From contig NC_007777.1 in assembly GCF_000013345.1 (NCBI RefSeq), positions 1,798,001-1,862,000 of the forward strand: 64,000 nucleotides of DNA, given 5' to 3'. Both the position numbers and the translations under genes were made by a program. The notes under the pieces are model-generated. The model had not been told where the DNA came from, ran no database searches, and saw only the letters and a program-made list of their open reading frames with translations. Below are positions 4,487 through 50,529 of this stretch, in pieces (the stretch's first letter is position 1; the number at the start of each line of letters is the position of its first letter). The stretch comes from Frankia casuarinae. GTDB taxonomy: Bacteria > Actinomycetota > Actinomycetes > Frankiales > Frankiaceae.

Positions 4487-6384
4487 ACGCCTACGCCCGG
4501 CCCGGTCGTCGGCCCGGCGATGCGCCCCCGGTGTGGCGCAGCCGCCGGGAGAACGAGCTGTTCGCCGGTCGCGACGACGAGCTGGAACGCATCTGGGACG
4601 GCCTGACCCGGCATCGGCGGGTGGTGCTGGTGCCGGAGGGGGACCAGTCCGACATCGGGGAGACCGAGCTCGCCGGCGAGTACCAGCATCGGTTCAAGCT
4701 GCGCTACGACGTCTCGTGGTGGGTGGACTGCTCGACGACCGCCGCCGTCCCCGGGCAGATCGGCGAGCTCTACGAGCGGGCCCGCACCGAACTTCCCGGC
4801 CCCCCTCCGGGCGCGGCCGACGCCGGGCCGGAGTCCACCGCGGGATGGTTGGTCATCTTCGCGGGTGTGGGCAGTCCGGACGAGGTGGCGGAGTTCCTGC
4901 CCGACGGCGAGGCGCATGTGATCATCATCGCCGACCGCGCCGTGGGCGCCTGGCGGGACCGGACGATGCCCATCGGGCCATTGCGTCGTCGCGAGTCGGT
5001 CATGCTGCTCACCAGCGCGGCGCCGATGGTCGACCCGGCCACCGCCGCCCAGCTGGGGGAGTTGGTCGGACACCGGCCCGCCCTGCTCGCGGAGATCGCC
5101 GGGTACCTGATCCGCGAGGCGGTCGTGTCGCCGGAACTGTGTCGGCGCCTGCTGGAGATGGCGGCGTCGCGGCCGACGCCGGCCGTCCGGGACGCCGCCG
5201 GCGGTGACCAGTCGTCCCGGGCCCAGGCGATGCGTGGTTCCGGAACCCCCGCCGGGGCCGCGTCCGGGGCCGCGTCCGGGGCCGCAGCCGGGGCCGGGGC
5301 CGCCGTCATGGTCGCAGGCGAGGTACGTGACCCGGTAGGGCGCAACGCGGCGCGGGCACCATCGATTCCTGTGATCAACAAGCACGGCTGGCCCCCCCGG
5401 GAGGTCGACGAGCTCGTCGCGGCCCTGATGCGGGTGGAGTACATCGCTGACCTGGCCGGTTTCGACCACTGGTTCGACGAGCTGACACGGATCCTCGGTC
5501 GCACGATCGCGCTGACCTCCCCGGTCGTCGCGGTCCGCCTGACCACGCTGGTCAGCGAGGCGGTCGGCCAGCCCGATCCCGGCATGCTCGACGCCTTGCT
5601 GCAGGCCCTCGACCTGGTCGCGCCGCGCGACGACCGGTCCGTCGTGGACTTCCGGCGCTTGGTGACCGAGCTGCAATCCCACTGGAGCGGCGCGGGCTCG
5701 GCGCTGCCCGGCATGTCATCACCGGTGCCCGCCTACCAGCTTCCCTCCTGGCCACCGCTGCTGTCTGGAGTGCCCTCCTCACCCCCGCCCAGCCACGGGC
5801 CGTCGGGCACCCCGACCTACTACTTCTTCACCAGCCACGCGCACCGCGACGACCGGGATCGCGTGGCCATCTTCCATCGGGAGCTCGAGCTGGAGCTGCG
5901 CCGCAAGGTCCGGCGCCGGATCCGGCCGACGGGATTCTTCGACGCCGACCGGCTGGGCGGCGGGGAGCACTGGCCGACCTCGCTGCGCGACGCGGTGCGC
6001 ACGGCTCCGGTGCTGGTCGCGCTGTGGTGTGACGACTACTTTGAGAGCGACTGGTGCGGCCGGGAGTTCGGCGTTTTTCAGGAACGTATCCGCCGGGCGA
6101 CCAAGCCGGGCGGGAACCCGCCGTCCGGGATCATTCCCGTGCCCTGGCTGCGGCGGGACGCCGAGGTACCCGAGGCGGCCCGTGAACTCCACATCGCGCA
6201 TATGGAGCTTGGTCGTCAGTATGACAACCTTCCGGTCCTGGATTTGATGCGCCATCCCGCCGCCTTCGCGGAGTATGTAAGTCTGCTGGCCTACCGGGTC
6301 ATGGATGTCGCTCGCGACCAGCTGCCGCCGTTGGACGCCGAGGTGACGGAGCTCGTCCGTTCCCCGTTCCACCATCAGCCGTGA
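4483..6384 (+). CDS. degenerate STAND-ATPase / FxsC-type TIR fusion
   Basis: A 633-residue protein whose ATG overlaps the upstream stop. The N-terminal 250 residues follow the NB-ARC/STAND layout (FAGRDDELERIWDGL, then ELAGEYQHRFKLRYDVSWWVD), but where a P-loop should stand the sequence is EGDQSDIGETELAGEY. The glycines and the lysine are gone, so nucleotide binding is doubtful. An Ala/Gly-rich repeat linker follows. Residues about 303-400 form a helical domain like the effector-associated domains of conflict systems (tentative). Residues 445-600 are a complete FxsC-type TIR domain (TYYFFTSHAHRDD, FFDADRLG, DWCGREFGVF). It looks like a sensor-adaptor with an effector domain. Confidence 0.7.
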   Translation: MNAYARPGRRPGDAPPVWRSRRENELFAGRDDELERIWDGLTRHRRVVLVPEGDQSDIGETELAGEYQHRFKLRYDVSWWVDCSTTAAVPGQIGELYERARTELPGPPPGAADAGPESTAGWLVIFAGVGSPDEVAEFLPDGEAHVIIIADRAVGAWRDRTMPIGPLRRRESVMLLTSAAPMVDPATAAQLGELVGHRPALLAEIAGYLIREAVVSPELCRRLLEMAASRPTPAVRDAAGGDQSSRAQAMRGSGTPAGAASGAASGAAAGAGAAVMVAGEVRDPVGRNAARAPSIPVINKHGWPPREVDELVAALMRVEYIADLAGFDHWFDELTRILGRTIALTSPVVAVRLTTLVSEAVGQPDPGMLDALLQALDLVAPRDDRSVVDFRRLVTELQSHWSGAGSALPGMSSPVPAYQLPSWPPLLSGVPSSPPPSHGPSGTPTYYFFTSHAHRDDRDRVAIFHRELELELRRKVRRRIRPTGFFDADRLGGGEHWPTSLRDAVRTAPVLVALWCDDYFESDWCGREFGVFQERIRRATKPGGNPPSGIIPVPWLRRDAEVPEAARELHIAHMELGRQYDNLPVLDLMRHPAAFAEYVSLLAYRVMDVARDQLPPLDAEVTELVRSPFHHQP

Positions 6385-7434: not shown

Positions 7435-10400
7435 ACTTTCCGAGCAACCACCGGAACTTTCCAGGCAACCACCGGAACCGGCGGGTCACGACACGCCGGG
7501 CGGGCGCGCCGGCAGGCCGGCGCAGATCATCACCTTCTACTCCTACAAGGGCGGTTCGGGGCGCACGATGGCACTGGCGAACGTCGCCTGGCTGCTCGCC
7601 GCCTCGGGTAAGCGGGTTCTCACCGTCGACTGGGATCTGGAGTCTCCCGGCCTGCACCGGTATTTCCGCCCGTTTCTGCAGAACAGGGAGCTGGACTCGA
7701 GTGACGGCGTCACCGAGATGCTCCAGGGTTTCATCCGGGAGATCGACCGGCTCCAGGACGCGCCGCCGTCGACATCCGCGGAGCAGGCCTCCGTGCCGGA
7801 CGCCGACGCGGTGCGCGAGATCATCGCCCTGCACGGCGACTTCCGGCACAACATCGAGACCATCGAGTGGCCCGGGTTCCCGGGCGTCGGACGGATCGAC
7901 TTCCTCGGTCCCGGCCGGCAGACGTCCACGAGCGCGGTGCTGGTGGCCACGGTGCCCTGGTCGACGCTGTTCGAGGACGCCGACGGCCGGGCGTATTTCG
8001 CCGCGCTGCGTGAGCGCATGCGGTTCGCCGACTACGACTACGTCCTCATCGACAGCCGGACCGGCACCTCGGACGCGGCCGGCGTCTGCACCCAGCTCCT
8101 GCCGGACACCGTCGTCATCGGATTCGCGCTGAACAACCAGTCCATCGACGGCGGCGCCGGGGTGGCCCGCGAGATCCGTAACAGCAAGCGGGACATCCGG
8201 GTGCTGCCCGTCCCGATGCGGGTCGAGGACACCGAGCAGCGCAAGCAGGAACTGCGCCGCCGCGCGGCGTTCCACGCCTTCCGCCCGGTGTTGGCCGACC
8301 TGTGCGGTTCCGACCCGGAGGCACAGCGGAGCTTTCTGATCGGCCTGGAGATCCCCTACAAGGCGGTCTACGCCTACGAGGAGGTCCTGGCGGCCTTCCA
8401 GGAGGATCCCGCCAGCCGGCTCGGCGTCCAGGCCGCCTACCGGATGCTCGCCGGAGAGCTTGCCGGCGCCCCGATCGATGCGCGCCCCGTCCCGCCACAG
8501 GATCGGGAGCGGGTGCTGCGGGACTTCGAGCAGTACGGACCGCCCGCTCCGCGGTCGGTGGCGATCTTTGGGGCGCCCGAGGACCGGCCCTGGGCGGACT
8601 GGCTGGTGTCGGTGCTGGGAGCCACCGGGGTGCGGATCCGACCGCTGCCCCCGATGGCGCTGACCCCCGCCGACTTCCCCGCCGTCGAGTCACTGATCGT
8701 GATCGGATCACCGCATCTGGGCCCGGACACCCCGGGTGAGTCCCTGGTGCGCGAGCAGATCCAGACCCGGATCCGCCAGCGCGGCTCGCGGGCGGGGGTG
8801 GTGGTCGTCGAGGTGGGTTCGATGCGGCTCGACTCCGCCTACCATGGAGCCGAGATCATCTCCCTGCCCGCGCGGAACGAGCGGGACGCGGGGGTCGTGG
8901 TCCTCGAAGGGCTGGGGCTGCCCGTTCCGCGGGCCCGACTCGACGACCTGCGGGTGGTCGCACCCCGGTACCCGGCCCGCCGGCCCCGCTTCTGGTCGGT
9001 GCCGGCCAGGTTCGCCCAGCCGTTCGTCGGACGGCACGCGGTGCTGGACGAGCTGCGCGACCGGCTGCTGCCGGGGGGCCGACCGAGCGGGCTGTGTCCC
9101 CTGCTCGGCCCGGACGGCGTCGGGAAGAGCGCCATCGCGGCCGAGTACGCGCACCGGTTCGACTCCGACTACGACATCGTGCACTGGATCTCGGCGGGTG
9201 ACGCCGCCTCGGTCCGGGCGGGCCTGCGCGACCTCGCCGAGCGGCTGCGTCCCGGCAGCGACGTCCCGGACGCGCAGCGTTCCCCGAGCGAGCAGCTCGA
9301 ACGGGTCGCCCTGGACGCGCTGCGCCAAGGCGACCCCTCGGCGCGCTGGCTGCTTGTCTACGACGGCGCCGCCGACCCGCGGACGCTGGCCGGGCTGTTG
9401 CCCGTCCCGACCGGCAACGGCCATGTCCTGCTGACTTCGGCGGATCCGGCCTGGGACAGTGAACCCGGCGCGTTGTGGGTGGACCCGTTCACCCCGGCCG
9501 AGAGCCGGGCGTTCCTGCGCCGGTGGCTGCCCGAGGTCGGTGAGGACCGGCTGGCGACGATCGCCGAGCGGCTACGGCATCAGCCGTCGGGCCTGCGCAC
9601 TGCGGTCGGGCGGCTTCGCCAGGACCGGCGGGGAGTGCCGGTTGACGATCGTGCCGTCGACGCCTACCTCACCCAGCTCGCCGGGGTCGCACCCGAGCAG
9701 GCAACCTGGACGGTGTCGTTCGAGACCCTGCGCACCAGCGACCGCGCGACCCGGCGGGCGGCGGCCCGGCTGCTGGAACTGTGTGCCTTCCTGGCCCCGC
9801 AGGGCGTGCCGCTCGCCCTGCTGGAATCCCCGGTGATGCTGCGCCATCTCGCCGAGGCGGTGGGGGACGACGCGATCGCCGACCCGACCGTGCTGCCCGA
9901 GCTGTGGGCGGAGATCCGCAAGCCCCGGCTGGCCGAAGTCGACACCGTACCCGACGGTCAGTTCCGCCTCGCCGCGCGCTGGCAGCGGCTCCTCGTCGAA
10001 CGGATGCAGCCCGCCGAGCGGACCGCCGCCCGCGAGGCGGTGCTCGGCATCTTCGCGGACATCGCCGCGGCCGCTCCGCGGCCCTCGGCCGCCGCGGGCT
10101 GGCCGATCTACCGGATGCTGGAGGGTCAGATCCTGGCCTCCGAGGCGATGGAGAGCCCGGCACCCAAGGTTCGGCAGTGGCTGGTGTCCCAGGTGTATGT
10201 GATGTGGCGGTCCGGCCGGCTGGAGTTGGGCCGCGGCATCGCCGAGGATGCGTTGCGCAGATGGCGCGACCTGTTCGGAGCGGACGACCCGCTGACCCTG
10301 CGGATGGCCGCCCACCTGGCCATGGTGCTCCGCGGTCTGGGACGGTTCCAGGAGGCGTACGACCTGAACACCGACACCCTCGCCCGCCAGCGCCGCCACC

Positions 10401-11401
10401 TGGGCATTTTCCATCGCCACACATTGATCACCGCGATGAGTTACGGCATCGACATCCGGGAGCTCGGCCGGTACGCCGAGGCAGCCGCGGAGGAGAGCAG
10501 CACCCTGGTCGGTTTCCGCGACCGGCTCGGCGACAACCACCTCGACACCCTCATGGCCGCGAGCAACCTCGCGCTGTCCACCTTCCTGGACGGGCGGGCC
10601 CGCGAGGCGCTCCACCTGAGCCTGGACACCATGGCGCGGCTACGCCTGGCGGGGGCCGAGGGCACCTCGCAGTTCTGGTGGCTGCAGGCGCGGGCCGGGA
10701 TCTGCCATCGGGAGCTGGGCGAGCTGGAGCAGGCGGAGCGGTTGCTGCGGGAGGCCGCGACCAACCTCGCCGGCATCGAGGGGGCGACGACGCACCTGAC
10801 CCTGCGCTGCAACAAGCATCTCGCGGTCGTCCTGCGCCTGCGGGGCAGCCCGGACGCGGCGAGCCGCCTCGCCGGTGAGACGCTCGAGCGCTACACCGAG
10901 ATCTACGGGGCGTCCGACCTGGGCACCCTGGCCTGCCTGCTGAGCCGTGCCGGCCATCTGCACGCGCTGGGCGAGCACCACCGGGCGTCCGTCGAGGCCG
11001 AGTCGTGCCTGCGGGAGTACGAACGTCTCCACGGCCCCGAGCATCCGTTCACGAACATCTGCCGCTCGGATCTGTCCATCTACCTGCGCGCGGACGGGCG
11101 GCTGGCGGAGTCCCGCGCACTGGCCGAGCAGGCCCACCTCACGCTGGTCGACGAGCTCTACCAGCACCACCCGTTCGCGCTGGCCGCCGGGGTGAACCAC
11201 GCCGCGAGCCTGGCGGCCCTCGGCGAGACCGAGGCGGCCCGGGCGCTGGACGAGGATCTGTTGCGCGAATCCGAAATGTCACTGGACAGCAGCCATCCCT
11301 ACCTCCCGATAATGCGGGAGAACCTGGCGGTCCTCACCGGCAGGCAGGCCGGCGGTGGGCGTGGCCATCGAGAAGTCGACATCGACATCTCCAGCATCTG
11401 A
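7421..11401 (+). CDS. fxsT: FxsT-type protein: ParA-like ATPase + TIR-like + NB-ARC + TPR
   Basis: A 1326-residue protein (ATG 7421; ATG 7427 also possible). In order: a SIMIBI/ParA-like NTPase with deviant Walker A KGGSGRT at residues 43-49 and VDWDLESPGLHRYF just after; a degenerate TIR-like segment (RSVAIFGAPEDRPWADWL, about 370-500); an NB-ARC ATPase with P-loop GPDGVGKS at 563-570 followed by IAAEYAHRFDSDYDIVHW; then helical repeats of TPR type from about residue 940 to the end (repeated GRFQEAYDLN, GRYAEAAAEE, GELEQAERLL turns). This is the architecture of the FxSxx-COOH system TPR protein (FxsT). Such chains are thought to be signalling scaffolds; the trigger is unknown. The C-terminus ends DIDISSI. 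Confidence 0.85.
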   Translation: MTMTELSEQPPELSRQPPEPAGHDTPGGRAGRPAQIITFYSYKGGSGRTMALANVAWLLAASGKRVLTVDWDLESPGLHRYFRPFLQNRELDSSDGVTEMLQGFIREIDRLQDAPPSTSAEQASVPDADAVREIIALHGDFRHNIETIEWPGFPGVGRIDFLGPGRQTSTSAVLVATVPWSTLFEDADGRAYFAALRERMRFADYDYVLIDSRTGTSDAAGVCTQLLPDTVVIGFALNNQSIDGGAGVAREIRNSKRDIRVLPVPMRVEDTEQRKQELRRRAAFHAFRPVLADLCGSDPEAQRSFLIGLEIPYKAVYAYEEVLAAFQEDPASRLGVQAAYRMLAGELAGAPIDARPVPPQDRERVLRDFEQYGPPAPRSVAIFGAPEDRPWADWLVSVLGATGVRIRPLPPMALTPADFPAVESLIVIGSPHLGPDTPGESLVREQIQTRIRQRGSRAGVVVVEVGSMRLDSAYHGAEIISLPARNERDAGVVVLEGLGLPVPRARLDDLRVVAPRYPARRPRFWSVPARFAQPFVGRHAVLDELRDRLLPGGRPSGLCPLLGPDGVGKSAIAAEYAHRFDSDYDIVHWISAGDAASVRAGLRDLAERLRPGSDVPDAQRSPSEQLERVALDALRQGDPSARWLLVYDGAADPRTLAGLLPVPTGNGHVLLTSADPAWDSEPGALWVDPFTPAESRAFLRRWLPEVGEDRLATIAERLRHQPSGLRTAVGRLRQDRRGVPVDDRAVDAYLTQLAGVAPEQATWTVSFETLRTSDRATRRAAARLLELCAFLAPQGVPLALLESPVMLRHLAEAVGDDAIADPTVLPELWAEIRKPRLAEVDTVPDGQFRLAARWQRLLVERMQPAERTAAREAVLGIFADIAAAAPRPSAAAGWPIYRMLEGQILASEAMESPAPKVRQWLVSQVYVMWRSGRLELGRGIAEDALRRWRDLFGADDPLTLRMAAHLAMVLRGLGRFQEAYDLNTDTLARQRRHLGIFHRHTLITAMSYGIDIRELGRYAEAAAEESSTLVGFRDRLGDNHLDTLMAASNLALSTFLDGRAREALHLSLDTMARLRLAGAEGTSQFWWLQARAGICHRELGELEQAERLLREAATNLAGIEGATTHLTLRCNKHLAVVLRLRGSPDAASRLAGETLERYTEIYGASDLGTLACLLSRAGHLHALGEHHRASVEAESCLREYERLHGPEHPFTNICRSDLSIYLRADGRLAESRALAEQAHLTLVDELYQHHPFALAAGVNHAASLAALGETEAARALDEDLLRESEMSLDSSHPYLPIMRENLAVLTGRQAGGGRGHREVDIDISSI

Positions 11402-38477: not shown

Positions 38478-39045
38478 GTACTCCAGTGACAGTGATCCTT
38501 ACGTGGTCGCGGCACGGGCGACGGCCGACTGGTTGGCTCGGATCCGGGTTTGGAAGTGGTAGAGGCGGGCGCGTGCCTGGTGGCGACGACGCCAGTCCGA
38601 CCACCATGTGATCATCGCTGCTGGGATAGCAGTCTGTCCGAACAGGGCGAGGACGTGCCGGATTTCGTTGGAACTGAACGGAATCATCTGCTCCTCCAAC
38701 CAGTCCCGCAGCTCGGCGTTCGCGCCGTACACCTCGTCACCGGCGACCCAGCCCAGCTCCCGATGAGCCAGCCAGAACCGGCGGATCATGTCCAGGGCCA
38801 GCAGTGGTTTCGTCGCGAACCCCGCCGTCGGGGCACCCCCGCCGCGGCGCACCGATCCCGGTCCTCGGTCCAAACCGGCCTCCCACACCGCCACGTCCGA
38901 CCCGGATACACTCCGCGCCGCGGCCACCGCGGATTCTTTGTTGGTTCTCACAAACTACGGAGGATCACAGGGTGGCCACCCCCGTTCGGACGCCACGCCG
39001 CCACCCCACACAGAGACCACACATCGGCCACTGTCACTGGAGTAC
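38478..39045 (-). mobile_element. deleted IS701-type element, 568 bp, with 17-bp inverted repeats
   Basis: GTACTCCAGTGACAGTG at 38478-38494 and its exact reverse complement at 39029-39045 bound the element. Flanks are CTC and CTAG-like (CTCG left, CTAG right when the repeat is taken as starting at TACTCC), compatible with a 4-bp target duplication with one change. Inside is an internally deleted IS701-family transposase (see next entry). A full IS701 is about 1.4 kb, so this copy has lost more than half its length and is non-autonomous. Confidence 0.75.
38499..38830 (-). pseudogene. internally deleted IS701-family transposase
   Basis: AGFATKPLLALDMIRRFWLA and WVAGDEVYGANAELRDWLEE are the DDE-region landmarks of IS701 transposases (the GDEVYG block). 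The reading then jumps straight to FSSNEIRHVLALFGQTAIPA and WWSDWRRRHQARARLYHFQT, the C-terminal block. The intervening catalytic region is missing, and the N-terminus upstream of about 38830 is unrelated. Non-functional. Confidence 0.75.
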
Positions 39046-39340: not shown

Positions 39341-40230
39341 TTATGTTGTTCCGCTCGCGGGGCGGCACGTCGTGTCACGGATCTCGATGCTCACGGGCAG
39401 CACGACCACTTCCGAGGCGTCCAGGTTCTGGGAAGCATCCGGAACAGCGTCGAGGAGACTGAGCAGCAACTCGGCGGCGATCTTCCCCTGACGGGCCAGC
39501 GGCTGGACGACCGTCGTCAGCTCGAACACCTCTGCCTTGTCGTGCCCGCCGAAGCCGATAACAGACATGTCCTCCGGCACGCGGAGCCTGGCACGGCGCA
39601 ACGCCCGCAGCGCACCCATCGCCATCTCGTCGTCCGCGACGAACACCGCCGTGGGCGGCGACTCGACCGAGAGCAGCTCAGCCATGGCCCGCTCGCCTCC
39701 CAGCCAGGTAAAACCCCCGACCGCCTCCAACCCCGGGTCACATTCGATACCGGCAGCCGCGAGAGCCTCGCGATACCCGCGCCGCCGATCCGCGGAAGCG
39801 GTGGAAAGCGCCGTCTCGCGATTATCTGATCCGTCCCCGGCCGCCTCACCCGAGATCAGCCCGATCCGCCGATGACCCAGATTGATCAGGTGCTGCACCG
39901 CCGTACGGGCACCGCCGACGTCATCGACCCGCACGCTGGGGAAACCGGGCACGCTCGCGCCGACCAGAACAACTGGTTCTTTAAGAAGGAAGCCCAGGAT
40001 TTCGATCTCCGTCGGAGTGACCGGAGTGAGAGGTGGACACAGGACGAGCGCCGCATCGACTCGCTCACACAGTGACAGCGCATCGAAGAGGCCCGAGTCG
40101 TCCCCGAGGTTGTAAAGCAACAGGTCCAGTCCGGCCCCCCGCAGCACCGCCTCGGCCCCCCTGAGGACTTCGAGGAAAACCCAGTTGGCAACATCCGGCA
40201 CGATCACCCCTTGTGGACCAGGACCGCGCC
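39341..40230 (-). pseudogene. LacI-family regulator lacking its DNA-binding domain
   Basis: The minus strand encodes a complete LacI-type sugar-binding core: GVIVPDVANWVFLEVLRGAE, VDAALVLCPPLTP, FPSVRVDDVGGARTAVQHLI, GHRRIGLISGEA, PPTAVFVADDEMAMGALRAL, RVPEDMSVIGFGGHDKAEVF and LTTVVQPLARQGKIAAELLL. The N-terminal helix-turn-helix and hinge are absent. Just upstream the same open frame carries the C-terminal part of a PEP-mutase-like gene (AMEDTAQQIGEARTGPAPQL), so a deletion has joined the two genes. Without the HTH it cannot act as a LacI repressor; it is probably a relic. Confidence 0.75.
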
Positions 40231-40239
40231 GGTCAGGCT

Positions 40240-41105
40240 CAAAACGGCGGCGAGCACGGCGAGAATCATCGCGGCTGGGAGGGTACGCATTCACGAGGTC
40301 TCCGATCTCTGACACCGATGCGATCTGATCGTCCAGTTGTGGAGCGGGGCCGGTCCTAGCTTCTCCGATCTGTTGGGCGGTGTCTTCCATCGCCCAACAG
40401 ATCGGAGGGGCTGGTTCGCGAAGATCCAGTGTGTGATACCGGACCTGGCGTACTCCTCGGCACCGAGCGCTGGATAGCAGGTTGGTGCGATGAACACCGG
40501 CGTGCGCCGATCCCATCCCCGGCCGAATTCCAGAAGTTCCTCGCCCCCGTCGGGTCGCGTGGCTTGCACAAACACCGCGTCCGCGCCGGCATCCACATAG
40601 CGGTTCGCGCGGTTCAAGGCCTCGGCCACGCCGTGCCCGGCCACCAACGCTTCGGTTCGGGCGATCAAGAAACAGCTGGGCTCCAGCCCGCGGCGCGTGG
40701 CGCGGAGGCATTTCTCCTGTTCTTCCACGCTGGCCAGGTCCCGCTCACCGGGGTACAGGATCGACCACTTGTCCAGCGTGTTGTCCTCGATGCACACCGC
40801 GCTCGCGCCGGCCTGGGAGATTGTCCGCGCCGCCAGGTCTACCTTGCGCGGGCCTCCGTACCCGGATTCCATGTCCACAACCACCGGATGACGCGTCGTC
40901 CTCGCCACGGTCCGTACCACACTGGCCATCTCGGAGGAATCTATTAGCCCGAGATCGGGAAGGCCCCCAGCGCGGCGGACACACAGAAACTGCTCACCCA
41001 GACGAAGTCGGGGTTGTGCTTGTCGGCCAGCCGTGCGGACGGGCCGTCATACACGCCAACTCCGAGACGTACAGGAGTATCGGTCGAGAACCAGCTGGGT
41101 GTCAC
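40240..41105 (-). pseudogene. frameshifted PEP-mutase / isocitrate-lyase-family gene
   Basis: Three frames must be joined. Starting at GTG 41105 (GGGAAGG 7 nt upstream): VRLGVGVYDGPSARLADKHN, FVWVSSFCVSAALG, then a shift near 40955-40965 to LPDLGLIDSSEMASVVRTVA, VVVDMESGYGGPRKVDLAAR, AVCIEDNTLDKW, CFLIARTEALVAGHGVAEAL and ADAVFVQATRPDGGEELLEF. A second shift near 40380 leads to AMEDTAQQIGEARTGPAPQL. Metal-site acids of the family (DMESGYG, EDN) are present, but the EDKxFPK motif of true PEP mutase is EDNTLDK, so it is closer to phosphonopyruvate-hydrolase-like or unassigned members. Two frameshifts make it a likely pseudogene unless the assembly is wrong there. Confidence 0.7.
40363..40407. 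repeat. perfect 17-bp inverted repeat inside the PEP-mutase-like pseudogene
   Basis: CTCCGATCTGTTGGGCG (40363-40379) and CGCCCAACAGATCGGAG (40391-40407) with an 11-nt loop. One of the two frameshifts of the gene lies at this hairpin. Confidence 0.85.
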
Positions 41106-41207
41106 GTGATTACCTTCCCGGTTTGTGATGTCGAAGAGTTCGACTTTTAACCATTGGAGTGGTATGCGTAGCGCTCCATCGAGCCGCACAGATGAAATCT
41201 TCGTTGG

Positions 41208-41409
41208 GAGCTAGCGGCTGTCCGGTGACCATCACGGCGCCCGCGGCTGCGGGCCCGGCACCCTGCTCGTGACCGACGGTGACATACCGGAGGGTGGCGC
41301 CGTCGATCAGCGTTCGGGGCGGGGAAGGGATCGGACCCCTGGGGGTGCCAAAGATGATCTTTTCATTCGTCGACCCCAACGAACCGACCACCGACCGCGC
41401 TCCGGTCAT
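41208..41409 (-). pseudogene. N-terminal fragment of an acetolactate-synthase-like (TPP-enzyme) gene
   Basis: From an ATG at 41409 with AAGGA 8 nt upstream: MTGARSVVGSLGSTNEKIIF, GTPRGPIPSPPRTLIDGATL, RYVTVGHEQGAGPAAAGAVM and VTGQPLAP. This aligns by eye with the N-terminus of acetolactate-synthase-like TPP enzymes, including the catalytic Glu region (GHEQGAGxAAxG). After about 67 residues the similarity ends and the PEP-mutase-like gene follows. It is a 5' remnant of what was probably a two-gene operon with that gene. Confidence 0.55.
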
Positions 41410-42146
41410 CTTCTTGATCCTTTTTCTCCGGTCGGTGAGATCATGAAGATCCGAAGTGAGCTCCCGAGGCATATCGTCAACCATCATGTTTACGTACGCT
41501 ACTCCCGGATTGGTGTCGATGCGCGTCGCGCGTCGCCTGGGGGCGTGTGACGTAAATCTCCCTAACTGGGTGCCAAGCCCTTTTATCGATCTTGATCTCA
41601 GCTAGCTTGCTGGGAATTTTGGGGCATTTGAAGCTTTTGCGTAGCAATCATGTACGGTTCGCAATCGTGATGTCATCCTTGGTTAGGTTGCATGGGCTCT
41701 GGTCCGTGAGGAGGCGGAGTCCCAGGATTCCCGATCCTTATGATCTTAACAATCGATCGGTTGAAGATTGTGCTGTCGCTGGACGAGCACTGTGTCCCGC
41801 TCCGTCCACGCTGGTACATGCGTGGCTCACCGCTCGCGACCGTGCGGTGTGCCGGGCAGTTCTCGCCTGCTCGTGGTTACGGGTCCACGTGTAGAGCCGG
41901 GCACGGGCCCGGCGGCCGACCGCACGCCCCAGCCGATGGCCGTCGTCACCTCGGTGTCCCGCGCGACGGACAGGGCGCGTACCCAACGCCCGGCTGGTGT
42001 CGCCGCCCTCACCGGCCACCTTCAGTCCTTCGGGGCACGCCCGGCCGGGTTGGTCCGGACCGTGAACCCGGATCGGGAGAGGATTGGCACGGGACCGAAC
42101 GGGATGGCCCGGATGGAAACGGGATGGCCCAGATGGGGATGGTGTC
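41410..42146. other. A+T-richer intergenic region without a credible gene
   Basis: About 740 bp. The part 41500-41780 is clearly less G+C-rich than the rest of the window and has no reading frame with actinomycete codon use. GTTTACGTACGCTAC (41488-41502) is an imperfect palindrome with a central CG, of the size of a LacI-type operator, just upstream of the decayed TPP-enzyme/PEP-mutase/LacI genes. Short GGGATGGCC repeats lie at 42100-42140. Confidence 0.45.
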
Positions 42147-45100
42147 GTGCACAGGTTCGAGGACCGCTGGGTGGTTTCCGCCAGTGATCTTGTCGACGTC
42201 GTCGAGTGTGGGCATCGCGTCGGGCTTGCGCACGCGCTCGCCGCCGGGCTGGTGACCGGGGAGACGTCGGAGAACGGGCCGCGCCGGATCGACCGGGTGC
42301 GCCTGACCCCCGCGGACACCACTGCCGTGCGGCACGGCGAGGCGCACGAACGACGCTGGCTGGAGCATCTGCGCCGGTGTTTTGGCGCGGACGGGGTCGT
42401 GGCGATCGAGCGGCCCGCCCCCACGCTCGCCGCCCTGGCCCAGGCCCACGAGCGGACCCGCCAGGCGTTGGCCGCCGGGGTTCCCGTCGTCTACCAGGGG
42501 GCGCTGTTCGACGGCGCGTTCCAGGGGCGCCCCGACTTCCTCATCGCGGCGCATCTCGACCCGGTCGCCGGCGCATCGACCGGGCCCGCGGTCGCGGGCC
42601 GTTACGAGCCCTACGACGCCAAGCTCGCCCGGCACGCCAGTCCGGGAGCCGTGCTGCAGCTCGCCGCCTACGCGGCGGCCTTACCGTCGGTGGGCGTACC
42701 CGTTCCGCGGTTCATGCATCTGCTGCATCCCGCGCAGCGGGCCACCGCTCCAGAGCCAGAGCCAGAGCCCGCGCTCGGGGTCGGGGTCGGGGTCGGGGTC
42801 GTGCGCACGTTCCGGGTCGACGATGTCGTGCCGATGGTCGGGCACGCGCGCAGCCGTCTCGCCGATCGGCTGGCGGCTGCCCCCGCGGTTCCCGAACCGT
42901 CCTGGGCCGAGCCCCGGTCGGCCTGCGCCACCTGCGCGTTCAGCGCGCACTGCGCGCGCGGCCGGGCGGAGGCCCGCGACCTGTCGCTGGTCGCCGGGCT
43001 GCGCGGCGACCAGCGACAGGTGCTGCGCGCGGCCGGCATCACCGCGGTGGAGGAGCTCGCCGCGGCCCGCGACGACCAGCGGCCCGCGACGATGTCCCCG
43101 GCGACGTTCGCGGGACTGCGTCTTCAGGCGGAACTGCAGGCCGGGCAGGATGCGACGCGTACCGCGGACGACCCGGTCGGGACGGTGACCGTCCGGATGA
43201 CCGGCCCGGAGGGTCTCGCGGCCCTTCCGGTGCCCGATCCCGGTGACATCTACTTCGATATGGAGGGCGATCCGTACGCGCTGGACGCCGCCGGTCTGGA
43301 GTACCTGTTCGGCGCGGTCACCCTCGCGGACGGCGAGCTCTTCCGGGCGTTCTGGGCACACGATCGGGCGGGGGAGCGGCAGGCGTTCGAGCGTTTCGTC
43401 GACTGGGCGACGGAGCGGTTGCGCGCGCACCCCGGCGCGCACATCTACCATTACGCGCCCTACGAGCCGAACGCGTTGCGCCGGCTGGCCGCGCGACACG
43501 GCACGCGGGAACGGCAGGTAGACGATCTGCTCGCCGGGCACCGGCTGGTGGATCTCTACGCCGTGGTCCGGCGCAGCCTGCGGATCTCCCAGCCGTCCTA
43601 CTCGATCAAATACCTCGAACCGCTGTTCCTGCCCGGTGCCCGACAGGCCGAGGTGAAGAACGCCACCGACAGCATCGTGGCGTACGAGAGCTTCCTGGCA
43701 CACCGCGCCGCCGGGGAGCTCGCCGCGGCCGACCGCGTCCTCGCTCAGATCGCCGACTACAACCGGATCGACTGCGTGTCGACCCACCGACTGCACCGCT
43801 GGCTACTGGGCCTGCGGGGGGCCGACGGCGGCACGCCGCGGATCGACACCGCTGCCGCCGTTGACACCGCTGCCGCCGTTGACACCGCTGCCGCCGTTGA
43901 CACCGCTGCCGCCGTTGACACCGCTGCCGACGCCGCCGACGACGCGCTCGTCGACGCCGCCGACGACGCGCTCGTCGACGCCGCCGACGACGCGCTCGTC
44001 GACGCCGCCGACGACGCGCTCGTCGACACCCTCGTCGCGGGCCTTCCCGACGATCCGGCCGACTGGACGGGAGACGAGCGGGCGCGCGCCCTGCTCGCCG
44101 CGGCCGTCGGATACCACCGGCGTGAGAACAAGCCCGCCTGGTGGTCGTACTTCGCGGCGCTGACCGCCGATCGCGCCACGCTGGAATCGGCCGACGACTG
44201 CGCGGTCCCGGTGAGCTGGACCGTTGTCGAGGACTGGGTCGAACCGGCCGGGCGACGGCGGCGGAGTCGTCGACTGCTGCAGGCCCGCGTCGATCCGGAC
44301 CGTCCGCATCCCTTCGACCGCGGCGAGGCGGTGCGGCTGCTCTACCCGGGACCGCCCGGGGCCGAGGGCGCCACCACCGACGCGGTCGTCGAGCGAGCCG
44401 AGCCGCACACGCTGCTGCTGCGGGAGAGCGTCGCCCCCGACGGCGTGGCCCGCAGGCCGCCCCTCGCCGTGCTGCCCGGATCGCCGGTGCGTCCGGAACC
44501 CAAGCCGGCGGCGATCCGCGGCCTCGCCCGCCGGACCGCCGACGCCCTGCCGGACCTGCCCGCGGACCCCGCGTTGGACCTGCTGCGACGTCGCCCCCCG
44601 CGGCTGGTCGGCCGGGACGACCTGCCGGCGCCCGGCGAGCACGACGGAGACCAGATCGCCGCCGTGCTCGCCGCGGTGAGCATGCTCGACGGCTCCTACC
44701 TGGCCGTGCAGGGGCCGCCGGGGGCGGGCAAGACCTACCTCGCCGGCAGGCTCATCCGCCATCTCGTCGAGCAGGGGCGCACGGTCGGGGTCTGCTCGAC
44801 CAGTCACAAGGCGATCGAGAACGCGATGCTCGCCGCGACCGGCCAGCCGCCGGCGGACCCGAAGCCCGCGGACGCCCGGGCCGCGGACGCCCGGGCCGCG
44901 GACGCCCGGGCCGCGGACGCCCGGGCCGCGGACGCCGTGCCCGCCTGGCGCCCCGCGGTGCCCGCCGCGAAGAAACAGCGGTCCGGGGCGAGGCCGGCTT
45001 CGGCGGCTTCGGGCATGTTCCCGCCCTGGGATGGTCCGCGGGATCTGCGGGCACTCGCGGCGTGGCGCCGGGAGCACCCCGAGGGCCACCTGGTCGGGGA

Positions 45101-45989
45101 CACCGCCTGGGCGTTCGCGAACCCGGTGCTGCGTGGTGACCCCTTCGACGTTCTGATCATCGACGAGGCGGGGCAGTTCGCGCTCGCGGACACCCTCGCG
45201 GTGGCTGGCGCGGCCCGCAACCTCGTGCTCCTCGGCGATCCGCAGCAACTGCCGCAGGTGGTGGCCGGCATCCATCCGGACGGCGCGGACGCATCGGCGC
45301 TGTCGCATCTGCTCGGCGACGCCGAGGTGATCCCGCCCGAGTTCGGCTACTTCCTCGACCGGACCCGCCGGCTGCACCCGGCCGTGTGCGCGCCGGTGTC
45401 GGCGCTGGCGTACCGGGGGCTGCTGCACGCGCATCCGGTGGCCGGGACGCGCGCCGTGGCGGGTGTGCCGGCCGGGCTGTACCTGCACGACGTCGAGCAT
45501 CACGACAACGGCACCCGGTCGGACGAGGAGGTGGCCGTGATCCGTGACATCGTTCGCCACCTGCTCGGTCGTACCCTCGTCGACGGCGGGCCCCCGCGCC
45601 CGCTCCTCGGCAGTGACCTGCTCGTCGTCGCCCCCTACAACCGGCAGGTGCGGGCGGTCGAGCACGCGCTGGGCAAGGCGGGCCTGCCCGGGGTGCGGGT
45701 CGGGACGGTGGACCGTTTCCAGGGCCAGGAGGCAGCCGTCGTCATCACCTCGCTCACCACGTCCAGCTCGGCCCAGGCGCCGCGGGGGCTGGACTTCCTG
45801 CTCTCCCGCAACCGGCTCAACGTCGCGATCTCCCGGGCCCAGGTGGCGGCGGCGCTGGTCATGTCACCGGCGCTGCTCGACAGCTCTCCCCGTTCGGTCG
45901 CCGAACTTCAGCTCCTCGCCGGGTTAGCCCGGCTGCGTGTCATGGCCCGAACGGACCTGCTCGCCGTGCGCTCCCCGATACATTCCTGA
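42147..45989 (+). CDS. TM0106-type RecB-like nuclease fused to SF1 (Dna2/UPF1-like) helicase
   Basis: A 1280-residue protein (GTG 42147). N-terminal third: RecB-like nuclease with GRPDFLIAAHL and YEPYDAKLARHASPGAVLQLAAYA (active-site Asp...Asp-x-Lys) and a cysteine cluster (ACATCAFSAHCARG) that may bind Fe-S. Middle: an RNase-H-like exonuclease segment, DIYFDMEGDPYALDAAGLEY and YNRIDCVSTHRLHRWL. C-terminal half: helicase motifs VQGPPGAGKTYLAGRLI (about residue 854), DVLIIDEAGQFALADTL, LVLLGDPQQLPQVV, VDRFQGQEAAVVITSL and NRLNVAISRAQ. It should process DNA or RNA ends in repair or defence. Three minisatellites fall in its linkers. It stands alone between the decayed region and a LuxR gene. Confidence 0.9.
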   Translation: MHRFEDRWVVSASDLVDVVECGHRVGLAHALAAGLVTGETSENGPRRIDRVRLTPADTTAVRHGEAHERRWLEHLRRCFGADGVVAIERPAPTLAALAQAHERTRQALAAGVPVVYQGALFDGAFQGRPDFLIAAHLDPVAGASTGPAVAGRYEPYDAKLARHASPGAVLQLAAYAAALPSVGVPVPRFMHLLHPAQRATAPEPEPEPALGVGVGVGVVRTFRVDDVVPMVGHARSRLADRLAAAPAVPEPSWAEPRSACATCAFSAHCARGRAEARDLSLVAGLRGDQRQVLRAAGITAVEELAAARDDQRPATMSPATFAGLRLQAELQAGQDATRTADDPVGTVTVRMTGPEGLAALPVPDPGDIYFDMEGDPYALDAAGLEYLFGAVTLADGELFRAFWAHDRAGERQAFERFVDWATERLRAHPGAHIYHYAPYEPNALRRLAARHGTRERQVDDLLAGHRLVDLYAVVRRSLRISQPSYSIKYLEPLFLPGARQAEVKNATDSIVAYESFLAHRAAGELAAADRVLAQIADYNRIDCVSTHRLHRWLLGLRGADGGTPRIDTAAAVDTAAAVDTAAAVDTAAAVDTAADAADDALVDAADDALVDAADDALVDAADDALVDTLVAGLPDDPADWTGDERARALLAAAVGYHRRENKPAWWSYFAALTADRATLESADDCAVPVSWTVVEDWVEPAGRRRRSRRLLQARVDPDRPHPFDRGEAVRLLYPGPPGAEGATTDAVVERAEPHTLLLRESVAPDGVARRPPLAVLPGSPVRPEPKPAAIRGLARRTADALPDLPADPALDLLRRRPPRLVGRDDLPAPGEHDGDQIAAVLAAVSMLDGSYLAVQGPPGAGKTYLAGRLIRHLVEQGRTVGVCSTSHKAIENAMLAATGQPPADPKPADARAADARAADARAADARAADAVPAWRPAVPAAKKQRSGARPASAASGMFPPWDGPRDLRALAAWRREHPEGHLVGDTAWAFANPVLRGDPFDVLIIDEAGQFALADTLAVAGAARNLVLLGDPQQLPQVVAGIHPDGADASALSHLLGDAEVIPPEFGYFLDRTRRLHPAVCAPVSALAYRGLLHAHPVAGTRAVAGVPAGLYLHDVEHHDNGTRSDEEVAVIRDIVRHLLGRTLVDGGPPRPLLGSDLLVVAPYNRQVRAVEHALGKAGLPGVRVGTVDRFQGQEAAVVITSLTTSSSAQAPRGLDFLLSRNRLNVAISRAQVAAALVMSPALLDSSPRSVAELQLLAGLARLRVMARTDLLAVRSPIHS
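43845..43928 (+). repeat. 18-bp in-frame minisatellite in the nuclease-helicase
   Basis: GACACCGCTGCCGCCGTT four times plus a partial fifth copy, encoding DTAAAV repeats between the exonuclease-like and helicase parts. Confidence 0.95.
43929..44024 (+). repeat. 24-bp in-frame minisatellite directly following the 18-bp one
   Basis: Four identical 24-bp units (each starting GACGCCGCCGACGACGCG) encode DAADDALV repeats. It abuts the previous array with no spacer, so two independent arrays lie side by side in one acidic linker. Confidence 0.95.
44868..44939 (+). repeat. 15-bp in-frame minisatellite in the helicase domain
   Basis: GCGGACGCCCGGGCC four times plus a partial copy, encoding ADARA repeats shortly after helicase motif Ia (CSTSHKAIENAM), i.e. 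inside a RecA-like domain rather than between domains. Confidence 0.95.
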
Positions 45990-46140: not shown

Positions 46141-46176
46141 TCGCGACGTCTGGGCAGGTTGGGGAAGGGGATGCTC

Positions 46177-47244
46177 ATGACTCTTACACTGGCTATTCCT
46201 AGCCGTATGCAAACTGTTCTGCCTCGGGCGCTCGCGCGCCTGCGGGCCTCATCGGGTGCACACATTACTTTCGGGGGAATGGTCGCACTCCATTCCCGCA
46301 CCCTGACCATCACCAACGTGGACGGGCCGGGGCCGGCCGGGCTGATCGGTGTCGAGATCCCGTCCGGGATGGGCATCGGCGGTCAGGTCGTCAAGCATTG
46401 CCGGCCGGTCGTCATCAACGATCGAGCTGCCGCGCGAAGAGCGCTGCGATCCACCGCCGCGGAGATCGACGACACCGGTCTCGGTGCGATCATGGCGGTG
46501 CCGGTGTGCGAGGACGGCGCGGTGGCCGCGGTACTGTACGCCGCTGTCGAACCGGATCTGTCATTCGATGAGTCGGCTATTCACGCGGCCATGGCGGTGG
46601 CCCGGTTGATGGAGCGCGAACTCGGTCTCGTCAGTGGGGGGCCGCGGTCGAGAGTGCCGTCGGTACCGGTCCAGGGGCGGGTACCGGTCCAGGGGCGGGT
46701 GCCGGTCGAGGGGCGGGTGCCCGTTCAGGGCGGGGTGCCGGTCGAGGGGCGGGTGCCCGTTCAGGGCGGGGTGCCGGTCCAGGGGCGGGTGCCGGTCCAG
46801 GGGCGGGTGCCCGTTCAGGGCGGGGTGCCGGTCGAGGGGCGGGTGCAGGTGCCGATCCAGGGCGGGGTGCCGGGGGCCGTCCCGTTTCCGCGGATGCCGG
46901 GTCTGCCCCGGGAGAGCCTGCGGCTGGCCTATCGGGAGCTTCAGGAGGTCACCGAGCATGTCGCCGATCCGTTTCTGCGTGGTCGCATCGGCGGGGTGTC
47001 CGAGCTGCTGCGCGGGCTGCTCGCCGAGGAAACGAAGACGGTCGGACGGCTGACGCTGACCCCGCGCGAGTTGGAGGTGCTTGCCCAGGTCTCGTTGGGA
47101 TTGTCCAACGTCGAGACGGCCCGCCGGCTGACGGTCTCGCCCGAGACGGTGAAGGCGTACCTGCGCAGCATCATGCGCAAGCTCGGTGTCCGTAACCGGA
47201 CGGCCGCGGTACACGCCGCGCGCCAGATGGGAATGCTGCCCTGA
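46177..47244 (+). CDS. GAF-domain LuxR-family transcriptional regulator
   Basis: A 355-residue regulator; GGGGAAGGGG stands about 7 nt before ATG 46177. Residues 10-150 are a GAF-like sensor domain (VALHSRTLTITNVDGPGPAG, GMGIGGQVVKHCRPVVINDR, GAIMAVPVCEDGAVAAVLYA). Residues 162-230 are a VPVQGR-type hexapeptide repeat from an 18-bp minisatellite. The C-terminal 70 residues are the LuxR/NarL HTH: LTPRELEVLAQVSLGLSNVE and TVKAYLRSIMRKLGVRNRTA. There is no receiver domain, so it is probably a ligand- or redox-sensing one-component regulator. It has a paralogue without GAF at 54815-55285. A terminator follows directly. Confidence 0.88.
   Translation: MTLTLAIPSRMQTVLPRALARLRASSGAHITFGGMVALHSRTLTITNVDGPGPAGLIGVEIPSGMGIGGQVVKHCRPVVINDRAAARRALRSTAAEIDDTGLGAIMAVPVCEDGAVAAVLYAAVEPDLSFDESAIHAAMAVARLMERELGLVSGGPRSRVPSVPVQGRVPVQGRVPVEGRVPVQGGVPVEGRVPVQGGVPVQGRVPVQGRVPVQGGVPVEGRVQVPIQGGVPGAVPFPRMPGLPRESLRLAYRELQEVTEHVADPFLRGRIGGVSELLRGLLAEETKTVGRLTLTPRELEVLAQVSLGLSNVETARRLTVSPETVKAYLRSIMRKLGVRNRTAAVHAARQMGMLP
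46663..46866 (+). repeat. 18-bp in-frame minisatellite, about eleven units, in the GAF-LuxR gene
   Basis: Ten uninterrupted units of the type GTRCCGGTCCAGGGGCGG in several alternating variants (VPVQGR, VPVEGR, VPVQGG), plus a longer diverged last unit. The variants recur in an ordered way, which suggests block duplications of two or three units. It is the longest array in the window. Confidence 0.95.
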
Positions 47245-47270: not shown

Positions 47271-47793
47271 CCGGGGGTGTGGCCGTGGCTGCCGGTCTGG
47301 CAGTCACGGCCATTCGACCCCGCCGTATATTCCCGGCGCCGGTGTACGAGGATCTCGACCGCGGGTCGATGTGGCCTGCCATCGGTGCCATAGCGGCGTT
47401 TTCACGTTGTGCGGGCAGGCGTGGCGGGGCCGCCCGGCCGGCGAGCCGAGGCTCAGGCTGGACCTGAGGCATTGCCCTACTACCTTTGGGATTGTTCCCG
47501 GCATTCCCGCCCACTCCTCCTACGCCGCGGCGGCAGCCTATCCTCGAAGATTCTTCCAGTTGCCCTGCTTTCGGCGGCCGAATATCGATCGTGGCCGGGT
47601 TCCCGCTACACTTCTGCCTCCGGGCGAGGGTAGTTCGGAACCGGGACCCCAGGCGGGTCTACTTTCGAGGCGGAAGCTCGGGACTTCCTCGCAGTGCTCC
47701 ATGCGGTGCTCCATGCCCGGACGTGTGGTCGCTGGCGGCCACCGTCCGGCCGTTACGAGATCCATCGGCACGGGAGATCCTCGAAGGAGCGTC
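47271..47793. other. intergenic region upstream of the MMPL gene
   Basis: About 520 bp. One frame is open into the MMPL gene but has poor actinomycete codon use and no ribosome site, so I treat it as non-coding leader. No motif is recognised except a small duplication of GCGGTGCTCCATGC near 47702. Confidence 0.4.
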
Positions 47794-50529
47794 ATGCCGT
47801 CGTTCGCTGATCCGGCGCAGCAGCGCGAATCCCGACCCGATCGGGTGACGTATGCCGCGTTGTCGCACGGACGGGACGAGGGGTCGCACGGACGGGACGA
47901 GGGGTCGCACGGACGGGACGAGGGGTCGCACGGACGGGACGAGGGCTGGGCCGACCGCGGCCCCGCGTCGGCGGGCTCCACCGGCGCACCACCCCGTTCG
48001 CTGTTCACGATGGTGGCTGACGCGGCCGTCGTGTACCGGGGAAGGGTACTCGCCGCCGCCTGCCTGCTGGTGGTCGTGCTGCTGCCGTGGAATGCCGGAA
48101 TCTACGACCAGCTCGCCACCGGTGGTTTCTACGCACCGGGCGATCCGTCGACGCGGGCTGAGCGGCTGCTCGACGAGGAGTTCCCGGACGCGCCCCCCGA
48201 CGTCGCCATCATGCTGACGTCGGCCCCGGGTATCGACGGGCCGATCGCCGCCCGCCTGGGCCGGGAGCTCACCGGGCGGATCGCCGCGGAGCCGGGGGTG
48301 ACCTCGGTGCTGTCGTACTGGCCGGGCGGGCCCAACGAGGCGAGCCCGCTGCTGCGTGCGAAGGACGGCCGGTCGGCCCTGATCGTGTTCCGGCTCACCG
48401 GTTCCGAGGACCGCATCCAGCACCGCCTGAACGCCCTGCACGACCGGTACGCCCACGATGGTCCGGGGGTCCAGGTCCGGTTCGGCGGGGCGCCCGCGGT
48501 CATGCGTGATGTGACCGAGCGCAGCCGTGTCGACCTGGCGCACGGTGAGCAGATCTCCGCTCCGCTGGTGTTCCTCGTGCTGCTCTACGCCTTCGGCACG
48601 GTCCTGGCCGCCCTGCTTCCGGTCCTGGTCGGCGTGGTGTCGGTGGTGTCGAGTCTCGCGCTGCTGCGGCTGGCGGCCACGCTCACCGACGTGTCGGTCT
48701 TCTCGGTGAACCTGACGACTGCCCTCGGATTCGGTCTCGCAGTCGATTACAGCCTGTTCATCTTGCGACGTTTTCGGGACGAACGGGACCGCGGGCTGCT
48801 CCCGGCGGCGGCGCTGCGCCGGACGCTGGAGACCGCCGGGCGCACGGTGTTCTTCTCCGGGGTGACGGTGGCGCTGTCCCTGACGGCCGCGCTGGTCTTC
48901 CCGATCTATTACCTGCGTTCGTTCGCCTTCGCCGGCATCATCGTCGTCGTCGCATCGGAGGTGGCCGCACTGCTCGTGCTGCCCGCGGCGCTGATGGTGC
49001 TCGGTGACCGCATCGAGCGCGGCAACGTCCGGCTGGCGTTGTCGCGCCTGAGACGCTCGGGGTCACGCCCCTCGGGTCGCCGGCGGTCCGGTGGCCACCG
49101 CGTGGGGGCCTCGGCGGCTGGCCGCGGCTGGTCGGCGCTGGCGCGGCGGGTCATGCGCCACCCGGTGTTCTTCGGTGGGGTCGCGATCTTCGTGTTGGTG
49201 CTGTGTGCCGCCCCGCTGCGCCACCTCGACCTCGCGCTGGCCGACGACACGGTCCTGCCGGCGACCGCGGAGGCTCACGTCGTCAACGACGCGATGCGGG
49301 AGGACTTCGTCGTCTGCCTGTCCTGCCAGATTCCGATCGTGGTGCCCGGAGTGGACGCGCGGGACCCGGGGAGCGCCGAGAAGCTGACCGACTACGCGAC
49401 CCGCCTGTCCGCGCTGCCGGGCGTTGCCCGCATCGACACCGTCACCGGCAGCTTCCTGCGGGGCGAGCGGGTCGGTGTGGTGCCGAAGACTGCGATGAGG
49501 TACGTCGGAACGCACCGCGGCGCCTGGCTGTCGGTGTGGCAGACCGACAGGTCTCCGCTGTCCGAGTCGGCGAAGGACCTGGTGCGGAGGCTGCGGGCGG
49601 CACCGGCGCCGTTCGGCGTCCTCATCGGCGGACTCGCGCCGCACTTCCTCGACACCTCGCATTCCATCAAGCGGAGTCTGCCGCCGGCCTTCGCCGTCGT
49701 GATGACGGCGACCTTCATCCTGCTGTTCCTGTTCACCGGCAGCGTGCTCCTTCCGCTGAAGGCGATGTTCCTCAACACGCTGAACCTCGCTGCCACCGTC
49801 GGGCTGCTGGCGTTCGTCTTTCAGGACGGACACCTGACCGGTCTGGTCGGCGACTTCCAGGTGTCGGGCACGCTGGAGATGACCAGCCCGGTCCTGATGT
49901 TCTTCATCGCGTTCGGGCTCAGCATGGACTACGAGATCTTCCTGCTCGCCCGCATCCGCGAGGAGTACCTGCGGACGGGAGACAACCGCGATTCCGTCGC
50001 CCGTGGGCTGGGGACGACCGGTCCACTGATCACGAGTGTGGCGCTCGCTCTCATCGTGGTCATGGTTGCGCTGTCCGCGTCGGACATCAGCATGATCAAA
50101 TTGGTGGGTATCGGGCTGACCGTGTCGATCGTGCTCGACGTGACCCTCGTTCGAGCGATCCTCGTCCCGGCGTTCATGGCCCTGGCGGGCGACTACAACT
50201 GGTGGGCTCCCGAGCCGCTGCGCCGTCTGCACGCGCGGTTCAGCCTGCGGGAGGGCGGCGACGAAGCGGCCTCGCACGCGGGGGACCCGGGGCCCGGGGG
50301 ACCCCCCGACCCCGGGGGACACTCCGACCCCGGCAACCGCATGACGACGAAGATCATTTATCGGCGGGGGCGGGGAGAACCTACCCGAGGGGCCCGGCCG
50401 CCGGTCGGGCCGGCCCCGACCTGGCACTACTACCTGCGCCCGCGGCGGCGCGCGGACGGTGGGCCCTTACCGGCCATGATGGGTATCCGGGGTTTCGCAC
50501 TCGACGACATCCGCGTCGAAAGCGCATAG
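47794..50529 (+). CDS. MMPL-family RND transporter
   Basis: A 911-residue membrane protein; AAGGAG lies 6 nt before ATG 47794. The cytoplasmic N-terminus carries a GSHGRDE repeat (21-bp minisatellite). The MMPL/RND layout is clear: first helix VVYRGRVLAAACLLVVVLLPW, a periplasmic loop, a helix cluster with FGLAVDYSLFILRRFRDERD, then a second half with VFFGGVAIFVLVLCAAPL, a loop and a cluster with FGLSMDYEIFLLARIREEYL. The two GL(A/S)xDY motifs carry the proton-relay Asp-Tyr pairs. These pumps export lipids or lipophilic compounds by proton motive force. Substrate unknown. The C-terminal tail is Gly/Pro-rich and hydrophilic. Confidence 0.9.
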   Translation: MPSFADPAQQRESRPDRVTYAALSHGRDEGSHGRDEGSHGRDEGSHGRDEGWADRGPASAGSTGAPPRSLFTMVADAAVVYRGRVLAAACLLVVVLLPWNAGIYDQLATGGFYAPGDPSTRAERLLDEEFPDAPPDVAIMLTSAPGIDGPIAARLGRELTGRIAAEPGVTSVLSYWPGGPNEASPLLRAKDGRSALIVFRLTGSEDRIQHRLNALHDRYAHDGPGVQVRFGGAPAVMRDVTERSRVDLAHGEQISAPLVFLVLLYAFGTVLAALLPVLVGVVSVVSSLALLRLAATLTDVSVFSVNLTTALGFGLAVDYSLFILRRFRDERDRGLLPAAALRRTLETAGRTVFFSGVTVALSLTAALVFPIYYLRSFAFAGIIVVVASEVAALLVLPAALMVLGDRIERGNVRLALSRLRRSGSRPSGRRRSGGHRVGASAAGRGWSALARRVMRHPVFFGGVAIFVLVLCAAPLRHLDLALADDTVLPATAEAHVVNDAMREDFVVCLSCQIPIVVPGVDARDPGSAEKLTDYATRLSALPGVARIDTVTGSFLRGERVGVVPKTAMRYVGTHRGAWLSVWQTDRSPLSESAKDLVRRLRAAPAPFGVLIGGLAPHFLDTSHSIKRSLPPAFAVVMTATFILLFLFTGSVLLPLKAMFLNTLNLAATVGLLAFVFQDGHLTGLVGDFQVSGTLEMTSPVLMFFIAFGLSMDYEIFLLARIREEYLRTGDNRDSVARGLGTTGPLITSVALALIVVMVALSASDISMIKLVGIGLTVSIVLDVTLVRAILVPAFMALAGDYNWWAPEPLRRLHARFSLREGGDEAASHAGDPGPGGPPDPGGHSDPGNRMTTKIIYRRGRGEPTRGARPPVGPAPTWHYYLRPRRRADGGPLPAMMGIRGFALDDIRVESA
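47863..47946 (+). repeat. 21-bp in-frame minisatellite at the MMPL N-terminus
   Basis: Four units beginning TCGCACGGACGGGACGAG encode SHGRDEG repeats before the first membrane helix. Confidence 0.95.

Follow-up and report, generated by a model that had tools for sequence, protein, structure and literature searches.

Probable mosaic of gene relics, including a PEP-mutase-like pseudogene, beside a synteny break in the chromosome of Frankia casuarinae

The region at 39.34–41.41 kb of the window, the 64,000-nucleotide stretch of the Frankia casuarinae chromosome analyzed here (C1:1798001–1862000, C1 being one contig of 5,433,628 bases), is in all likelihood a non-functional mosaic of gene fragments beside a synteny break in this Frankiaceae chromosome. 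We take the strain to be CcI3. Three gene pieces lie head to tail on the minus strand within 39341–41409: the N-terminus of a TPP enzyme, a PEP-mutase-like gene, and the core of a LacI protein. The three seem to come from unrelated genes. Further copies of the PEP-mutase-like piece and of the LacI piece exist at other places in the genome, and the TPP-enzyme N-terminus, which is IlvB-like, adjoins them. The original prediction had read the three pieces as the remains of one three-gene operon. The locus consists of real relics, mostly of ordinary genome decay, that were probably wrongly grouped in this way: the TPP piece is of the IlvB type, the two intact relatives of the PEP-mutase-like gene yielded no match to the LacI or TPP piece, and the LacI piece has a paralogue elsewhere.

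The surroundings of the relics were compared with those in congeners, that is, the 12 other genomes of the genus (n = 13 including the own genome). DNA similarity started at 42122–42294 in all seven congener loci compared, and nothing to the left of 42122 aligned to these seven loci under a filter (120 bases, E 1e-8); the gene on the right-hand side was found in 12 of the 13 genus genomes (own included), of which the loci of seven were compared. On the left of the relics, a transposase fragment (38499–38951) lies between perfect 15-bp inverted repeats (38480–39043), a third site of which occurs in the genome with one mismatch. The fragment matched NCBIfam IS701 (E 8.9e-11, 41.7 bits, under the cut-off of 150) and, slightly under the cut-off, Pfam DDE_5; together with the repeats it suggests an IS701-type element that is decayed or MITE-like. 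A plasmid origin of the locus was considered and rejected, as each of the 379 matching plasmid records had <60% identity. Several genes of the window (42084–45989, 46159–47244, and 47371–50529) contain in-frame repeated peptide units, for example ADARAADARA, VPVQGRVPVQG, and SHGRDEGSHGRDEG.

The LacI piece (39341–40210, minus strand) comprises the effector-binding or sensor core (Peripla_BP_3, E 5e-33) and copies part of a full-length, 370-codon LacI gene located 0.7 Mb away (C1:2533578–2534690; positions 9579–10691 of locus L023), in which an HTH was recognized by eye. The claim that the sensor had lost its HTH held: no HTH family was among the Pfam matches of the piece, and its homology covers the paralogue from residue 87 to the stop, so that it does not resemble a functional regulator. 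Identity to the paralogue changes sharply along the piece, with 41 differences in 224 aligned bases (18%) from 40210 to 39972, about 20 of them in one 60-base bin with indels, and 3 differences in 631 aligned bases (99.5% identical) from 39971 to the stop; none of 2000 shuffles gave a step as large. As judged from these alignments, the step is characteristic of old paralogues that have recombined or undergone gene conversion, with 39341–39971 (minus strand) as the putative conversion tract. No stop interrupts the frame over 294 codons, and the three indels relative to the paralogue are all multiples of three, which we count against the mosaic. A LacI match at E ≤1e-40 was found in the own genome only among the 13 genus genomes. 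The C-terminus of the PEP-mutase-like gene reads in frame into the LacI core, as had been predicted; the deletion proposed for this junction is one reading only, approximately 92 bp of unassigned sequence (40211–40302, minus strand) lying between the two homologies as delimited by blastn match ends and alignment.

The PEP-mutase-like pseudogene occupies 40303–41105 on the minus strand, with a GTG start at 41105. Its two intact relatives are those of Ca. Frankia californiensis (locus L011) and Amycolatopsis acididurans (locus L012), and a partial second copy lies at locus L007 of the own genome. The 5′ leader (41106–41190, minus strand) aligned with its counterpart in Ca. Frankia californiensis, where the blastn match to L011 starts at position 7732. 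DNA identity to a named relative was 82% over 902 aligned bases, which is beyond chance. The prediction that the ribosome sites and starts of the first two genes are preserved was borne out, in that Shine-Dalgarno-like stretches were seen by eye before both GTG 41105 and the ATG at 41409 of the TPP piece. The two frameshifts that had been described were also recovered against the intact relatives: +2 near codon 53, in a G-run at 40964–40968 (minus strand; a C-run on the plus strand), relative to L007, L011, and L012, and −4 near codon 242. The part after the first frameshift matched PF13714 (E 2.3e-28) and TIGR02320 (E 6.9e-36); the short part before it reached 16.6 bits, under the cut-off of 31.5, and was assigned from its DNA similarity to L011 and L007.

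At the −4 frameshift, a repeat search revealed a perfect inverted repeat with 17-bp arms and an 11-nt loop (40363–40407; arms at 40363–40379 and 40391–40407) that is absent from L011 and L012. On the coding strand, the right-hand arm resembles the relatives and the left-hand arm differs from them. The arm has no other site in the genome at ≤1 mismatch, and a dispersed element was therefore rejected. Perfect 16-bp inverted repeats with a loop of 3–20 occurred in 0 of 60 simulated 64-kb windows; the real window holds a second perfect one, with 18-bp arms, at 42979–43021 inside gene 42084–45989. Template switching at quasipalindromes is a process set out in PMC7202029, and the −4 frameshift may have arisen when a template switch made a quasipalindrome perfect. 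The +2 frameshift would be a slippage in the G-run.

The second PEP-mutase copy, at C1:4134759–4135320 (L007 8760–9321), was 93% identical to the window copy over 564 aligned bases, likewise beyond chance. It carries private lesions, namely a +1 frameshift near codon 89 and the loss of the remainder from near codon 197 on, where other DNA follows. Because no frameshift is common to both copies, the frame was open in their common part when they parted or last recombined; each copy would then have been broken independently, after the rearrangement and any gene conversion. The two copies showed 20 differences in 97 bases of one part and 14 in 464 of the other, a step reached in 0 of 2000 shuffles, and these figures do not establish the predicted recent loss. 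Counted per 60 bases, the differences change gradually (9, 11, 4, 4, 1, 2, 1, 2, 0). A milder step was found between the second copy and L011 (56/288 to 26/267; 95 of 2000 shuffles), and no step stood out between the window copy and L011 (577 of 2000 shuffles). Since the identity step is gradual and partly common to the comparison of L007 with L011, these alignments only suggest gene conversion for the PEP-mutase piece, and uneven rates may explain part of the change.

The codon positions of the differences were also compared. Private changes at positions 1/2/3 were flat in the window copy (5/4/3) and the second copy (5/6/5), against 18/20/45 in L012 and 7/11/13 in L011. The raw counts were 17/11/14 between the copies (p 0.53) and 50/57/93 between the intact genes (p 0.0003), where the 42 raw differences between the copies take in ragged ends, the pairwise alignment giving 34, and the counts are small. 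Because the changes common to both copies are flat as well (11/5/7), decay or relaxation may predate the split of the copies, which weighs against a late decay. Around the second copy, pieces resembling transposase tails were noted by eye (L007 ~8640–8760 and 9395–9560); one frame near this copy had no match to a Pfam family. A further PEP-mutase relic of the own genome, at C1:2529873–2530193 (L023 ~5874–6194; TIGR02320, E 5.2e-23), has the canonical motif IEDKAFPKRNS and one TGA.

The TPP piece (41218–41409, minus strand) corresponds to the N-terminal 64 codons of an acetolactate-synthase-like (IlvB) protein, the remainder of which is gone; the predicted truncation was thus seen as a loss of homology after approximately 64 codons. 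The first ATG of the frame is at 41487, and ATG 41409 was taken as the start because homology begins there. Counted from this ATG, residues 1–65 matched Pfam TPP_enzyme_N at 27.2 bits (cut-off 26.8), and the best NCBIfam models were acetolactate synthases, with a partial match to PRK07789 at the top. In each of the 13 genus genomes, the piece matched one long frame of 611–707 codons at 43–44% amino acid identity; that of the own genome is at C1:4348471, and that of genus genome G001 resembles IlvB by eye. No second DNA-level copy of the piece was found in the own genome, the search returning only the piece itself. An identity as phosphonopyruvate (Ppd) or sulfopyruvate decarboxylase was rejected: acetolactate synthase models were best, no Ppd model was listed, and there was no match to PpdA of Amycolatopsis acididurans. 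Because of these models and the lack of a match to the relatives' decarboxylase, the piece is most likely an IlvB-like stump rather than a phosphonate enzyme. The phosphonate metabolism originally read from the TPP and PEP-mutase genes together consequently finds support for the middle gene, through the two intact relatives only, and none for the TPP piece.

Next, we considered whether the middle gene is a PEP mutase. A passage of PMC6697681 gives EDKxxxxxNS as the Ppm-specific motif. The corresponding residues are EDNTLDKWSI in the window, EDNPLDKRSS in L011, and EDNPLVKRSS in L012; the motif is present in the more distant canonical genes of three congeners (L008, L009, and L010). The curated cut-off of TIGR02320 is 319.55 bits, above the scores of both the intact L012 protein (191.9) and the broken window piece (123.7). 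A phosphonate gene context was seen in L012 and in the same order of frames in L011, and none beside the window relic. We use the name "PEP-mutase-like" because the motif differs, the family score is the nearest but under its cut-off, and the relatives' context is of the phosphonate type; from that context, the gene is likely to be phosphonate-related. Canonical PEP mutases were observed in 3 of the 13 genus genomes (L008, L009, and L010, of genomes G002, G006, and G001, respectively), and in those three a Ppd-alpha match follows 159–189 bases after the PEP-mutase match ends.

The two loci with an intact PEP-mutase-like gene came from a scan of genome contigs that reaches close relatives only; identity was 79% in Ca. 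Frankia californiensis and 72% in Amycolatopsis acididurans. In L012, the gene is followed by the two halves of a TPP decarboxylase, an MPnS/HEPD-like protein, an iron alcohol dehydrogenase, and two methyltransferases. The first decarboxylase half matched TIGR03845 (sulfopyruvate alpha) and TIGR03297 (phosphonopyruvate) about equally, the second matched TIGR03297 best, and the dehydrogenase matched TIGR03405 (Phn_Fe-ADH) best, all below the cut-offs. The order in L011, judged by translated frames, is as in L012. At E ≤0.01, L012 gave no match to the LacI protein or the TPP piece, and neither did L011, in which runs of N lie immediately upstream; the search for an intact three-gene cluster in relatives, proposed with the original prediction, thus ended without a LacI or IlvB N-terminal match in either locus. 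Upstream of the cluster, positions 1–7300 of L012 hold a PhnM gene and ABC proteins like PhnK/PhnL (by eye), so that genes for making and breaking C-P bonds adjoin there; a MetE-like protein, a 2OG-Fe oxygenase, and a YaaH-type transporter are encoded in the same interval.

The distribution of the PEP-mutase-like and MPnS/HEPD-like proteins is patchy. Of 393 genomes sampled from the class, two matched the former at E ≤1e-45 (the own genome and Ca. Frankia californiensis); of 35 genomes in the family, one matched the latter, a protein of 455 residues (Ca. Frankia californiensis). The MPnS-like protein had no match in the 13 genus genomes, own included, with a query that finds the Ca. Frankia californiensis genome, and Ppd-alpha had none in the own genome with a query that finds three congeners; remains of the relatives' downstream cluster in the own genome were accordingly rejected. 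PpdB and the first methyltransferase of the relatives were not found beside the relic in a search of the window, L007, L023, L001, L015, L011, and L012. Our literature search found no paper joining methylphosphonate synthase with Frankia and no mention of phosphonate in the papers it found to name californiensis strains; the main text of PMC12723261 is without "methylphosphon", Amycolatopsis, HEPD, and Frankia. The relatives' cluster, which is of moderate interest, is a better lead than the window, which is of little. We tentatively propose, on sequence comparisons and somewhat short of even confidence, a rare side branch of the PEP-mutase superfamily that has EDN...S in place of EDKxxxxxNS and takes in the relic. 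Its intact members would head a conserved cluster in which methyltransferases and a phosphonate-type alcohol dehydrogenase stand with a split TPP decarboxylase and a third type of MPnS/HEPD oxygenase, and whose product would be an undescribed C-P (or C-S) compound. If true, this would point to a phosphonate-type cluster carried by both a root-nodule symbiont and an actinomycete of the soil.

Several other explanations of the locus were weighed against the mosaic. A joint loss of three neighboring genes of common function, for a TPP enzyme, a PEP mutase, and a LacI regulator, would account for their shared strand and head-to-tail arrangement, and the relatives' PEP-mutase-like genes do adjoin TPP-enzyme genes. 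Moreover, 3.4 kb separate the full-length LacI paralogue from the PEP-mutase relic at C1:2529873–2530193, which may reflect an old LacI/PEP-mutase link. However, the TPP genes of the relatives lie downstream of the PEP-mutase-like gene and that of the window lies upstream, the IlvB-like piece shares only a chance 7-residue match with the cluster's decarboxylase halves, and the relatives are without the LacI and IlvB N-terminal matches, so that we regard a common operon as improbable.

A living hybrid gene is more improbable still. The 456-codon frame at 39341–40711, which would encode a LacI effector-binding core without DNA-binding domain behind a PEP-mutase C-terminal tail, is indeed open and retains 88–90% amino acid identity to the core of the LacI paralogue, but its first part is out-of-frame PEP-mutase DNA and the LacI differences are flat across codon positions (13/15/16). 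We give the least credence to errors of sequencing or assembly. One frameshift does fall in a G-run, whereas at the other a stretch has been replaced within a perfect inverted repeat, which is untypical of read errors; the second PEP-mutase copy of the own genome is likewise broken and truncated, and the neighboring TPP and LacI pieces are truncated too.

Under the preferred reading as a mosaic of fragments, the PEP-mutase-like gene of the window most likely once headed a phosphonate-type cluster, as in Ca. Frankia californiensis and Amycolatopsis acididurans. Rearrangement would have brought the pieces together, and ectopic gene conversion would have partly homogenized the LacI piece with its paralogue; some of the PEP-mutase piece may have been converted too. 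The window is of small importance in itself; it would illustrate how rearrangement, gene conversion, slippage, and template switching at a palindrome break genes in a reduced symbiont genome.

Finally, the relics and the relatives' proteins were compared with known systems. The N-terminal 64 residues of biosynthetic acetolactate synthase IlvB align to the TPP piece, which differs from the long frames of the genus in being cut off and in sharing 43–44% identity with them. PEP phosphonomutase (PepM/Ppm; TIGR02320, PF13714) provides the best NCBIfam match (TIGR02320) for both the relic and the intact L012 protein, although this lineage stays below the family cut-off and has EDN...S in place of EDKxxxxxNS. 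The 455-residue protein of L012 matched methylphosphonate synthase and HEPD over nearly the full length (PDB ID: 6b9s and 6b9r; E 3.6e-75 and 3.6e-70, respectively). Where MPnS (6b9s) has F/I and HEPD (6b9r) has Y/G, the relatives' oxygenase has instead H/H (L012) and H/T (L011). A Y-G motif of class II HEPD is named in a passage of PMC8976061, and motif spacing and alignment suggest that the H/H and H/T positions correspond to its site. With respect to the genome, passages of PMC2770080 describe Frankia CcI3 as having a reduced genome with many IS elements and transposases enriched at synteny breaks. These passages do not mention the window locus; the combination of transposase remnants, gene loss, and synteny breaks in the decayed, IS-rich regions of CcI3 is the one seen at the window locus, which fits this picture of decay.
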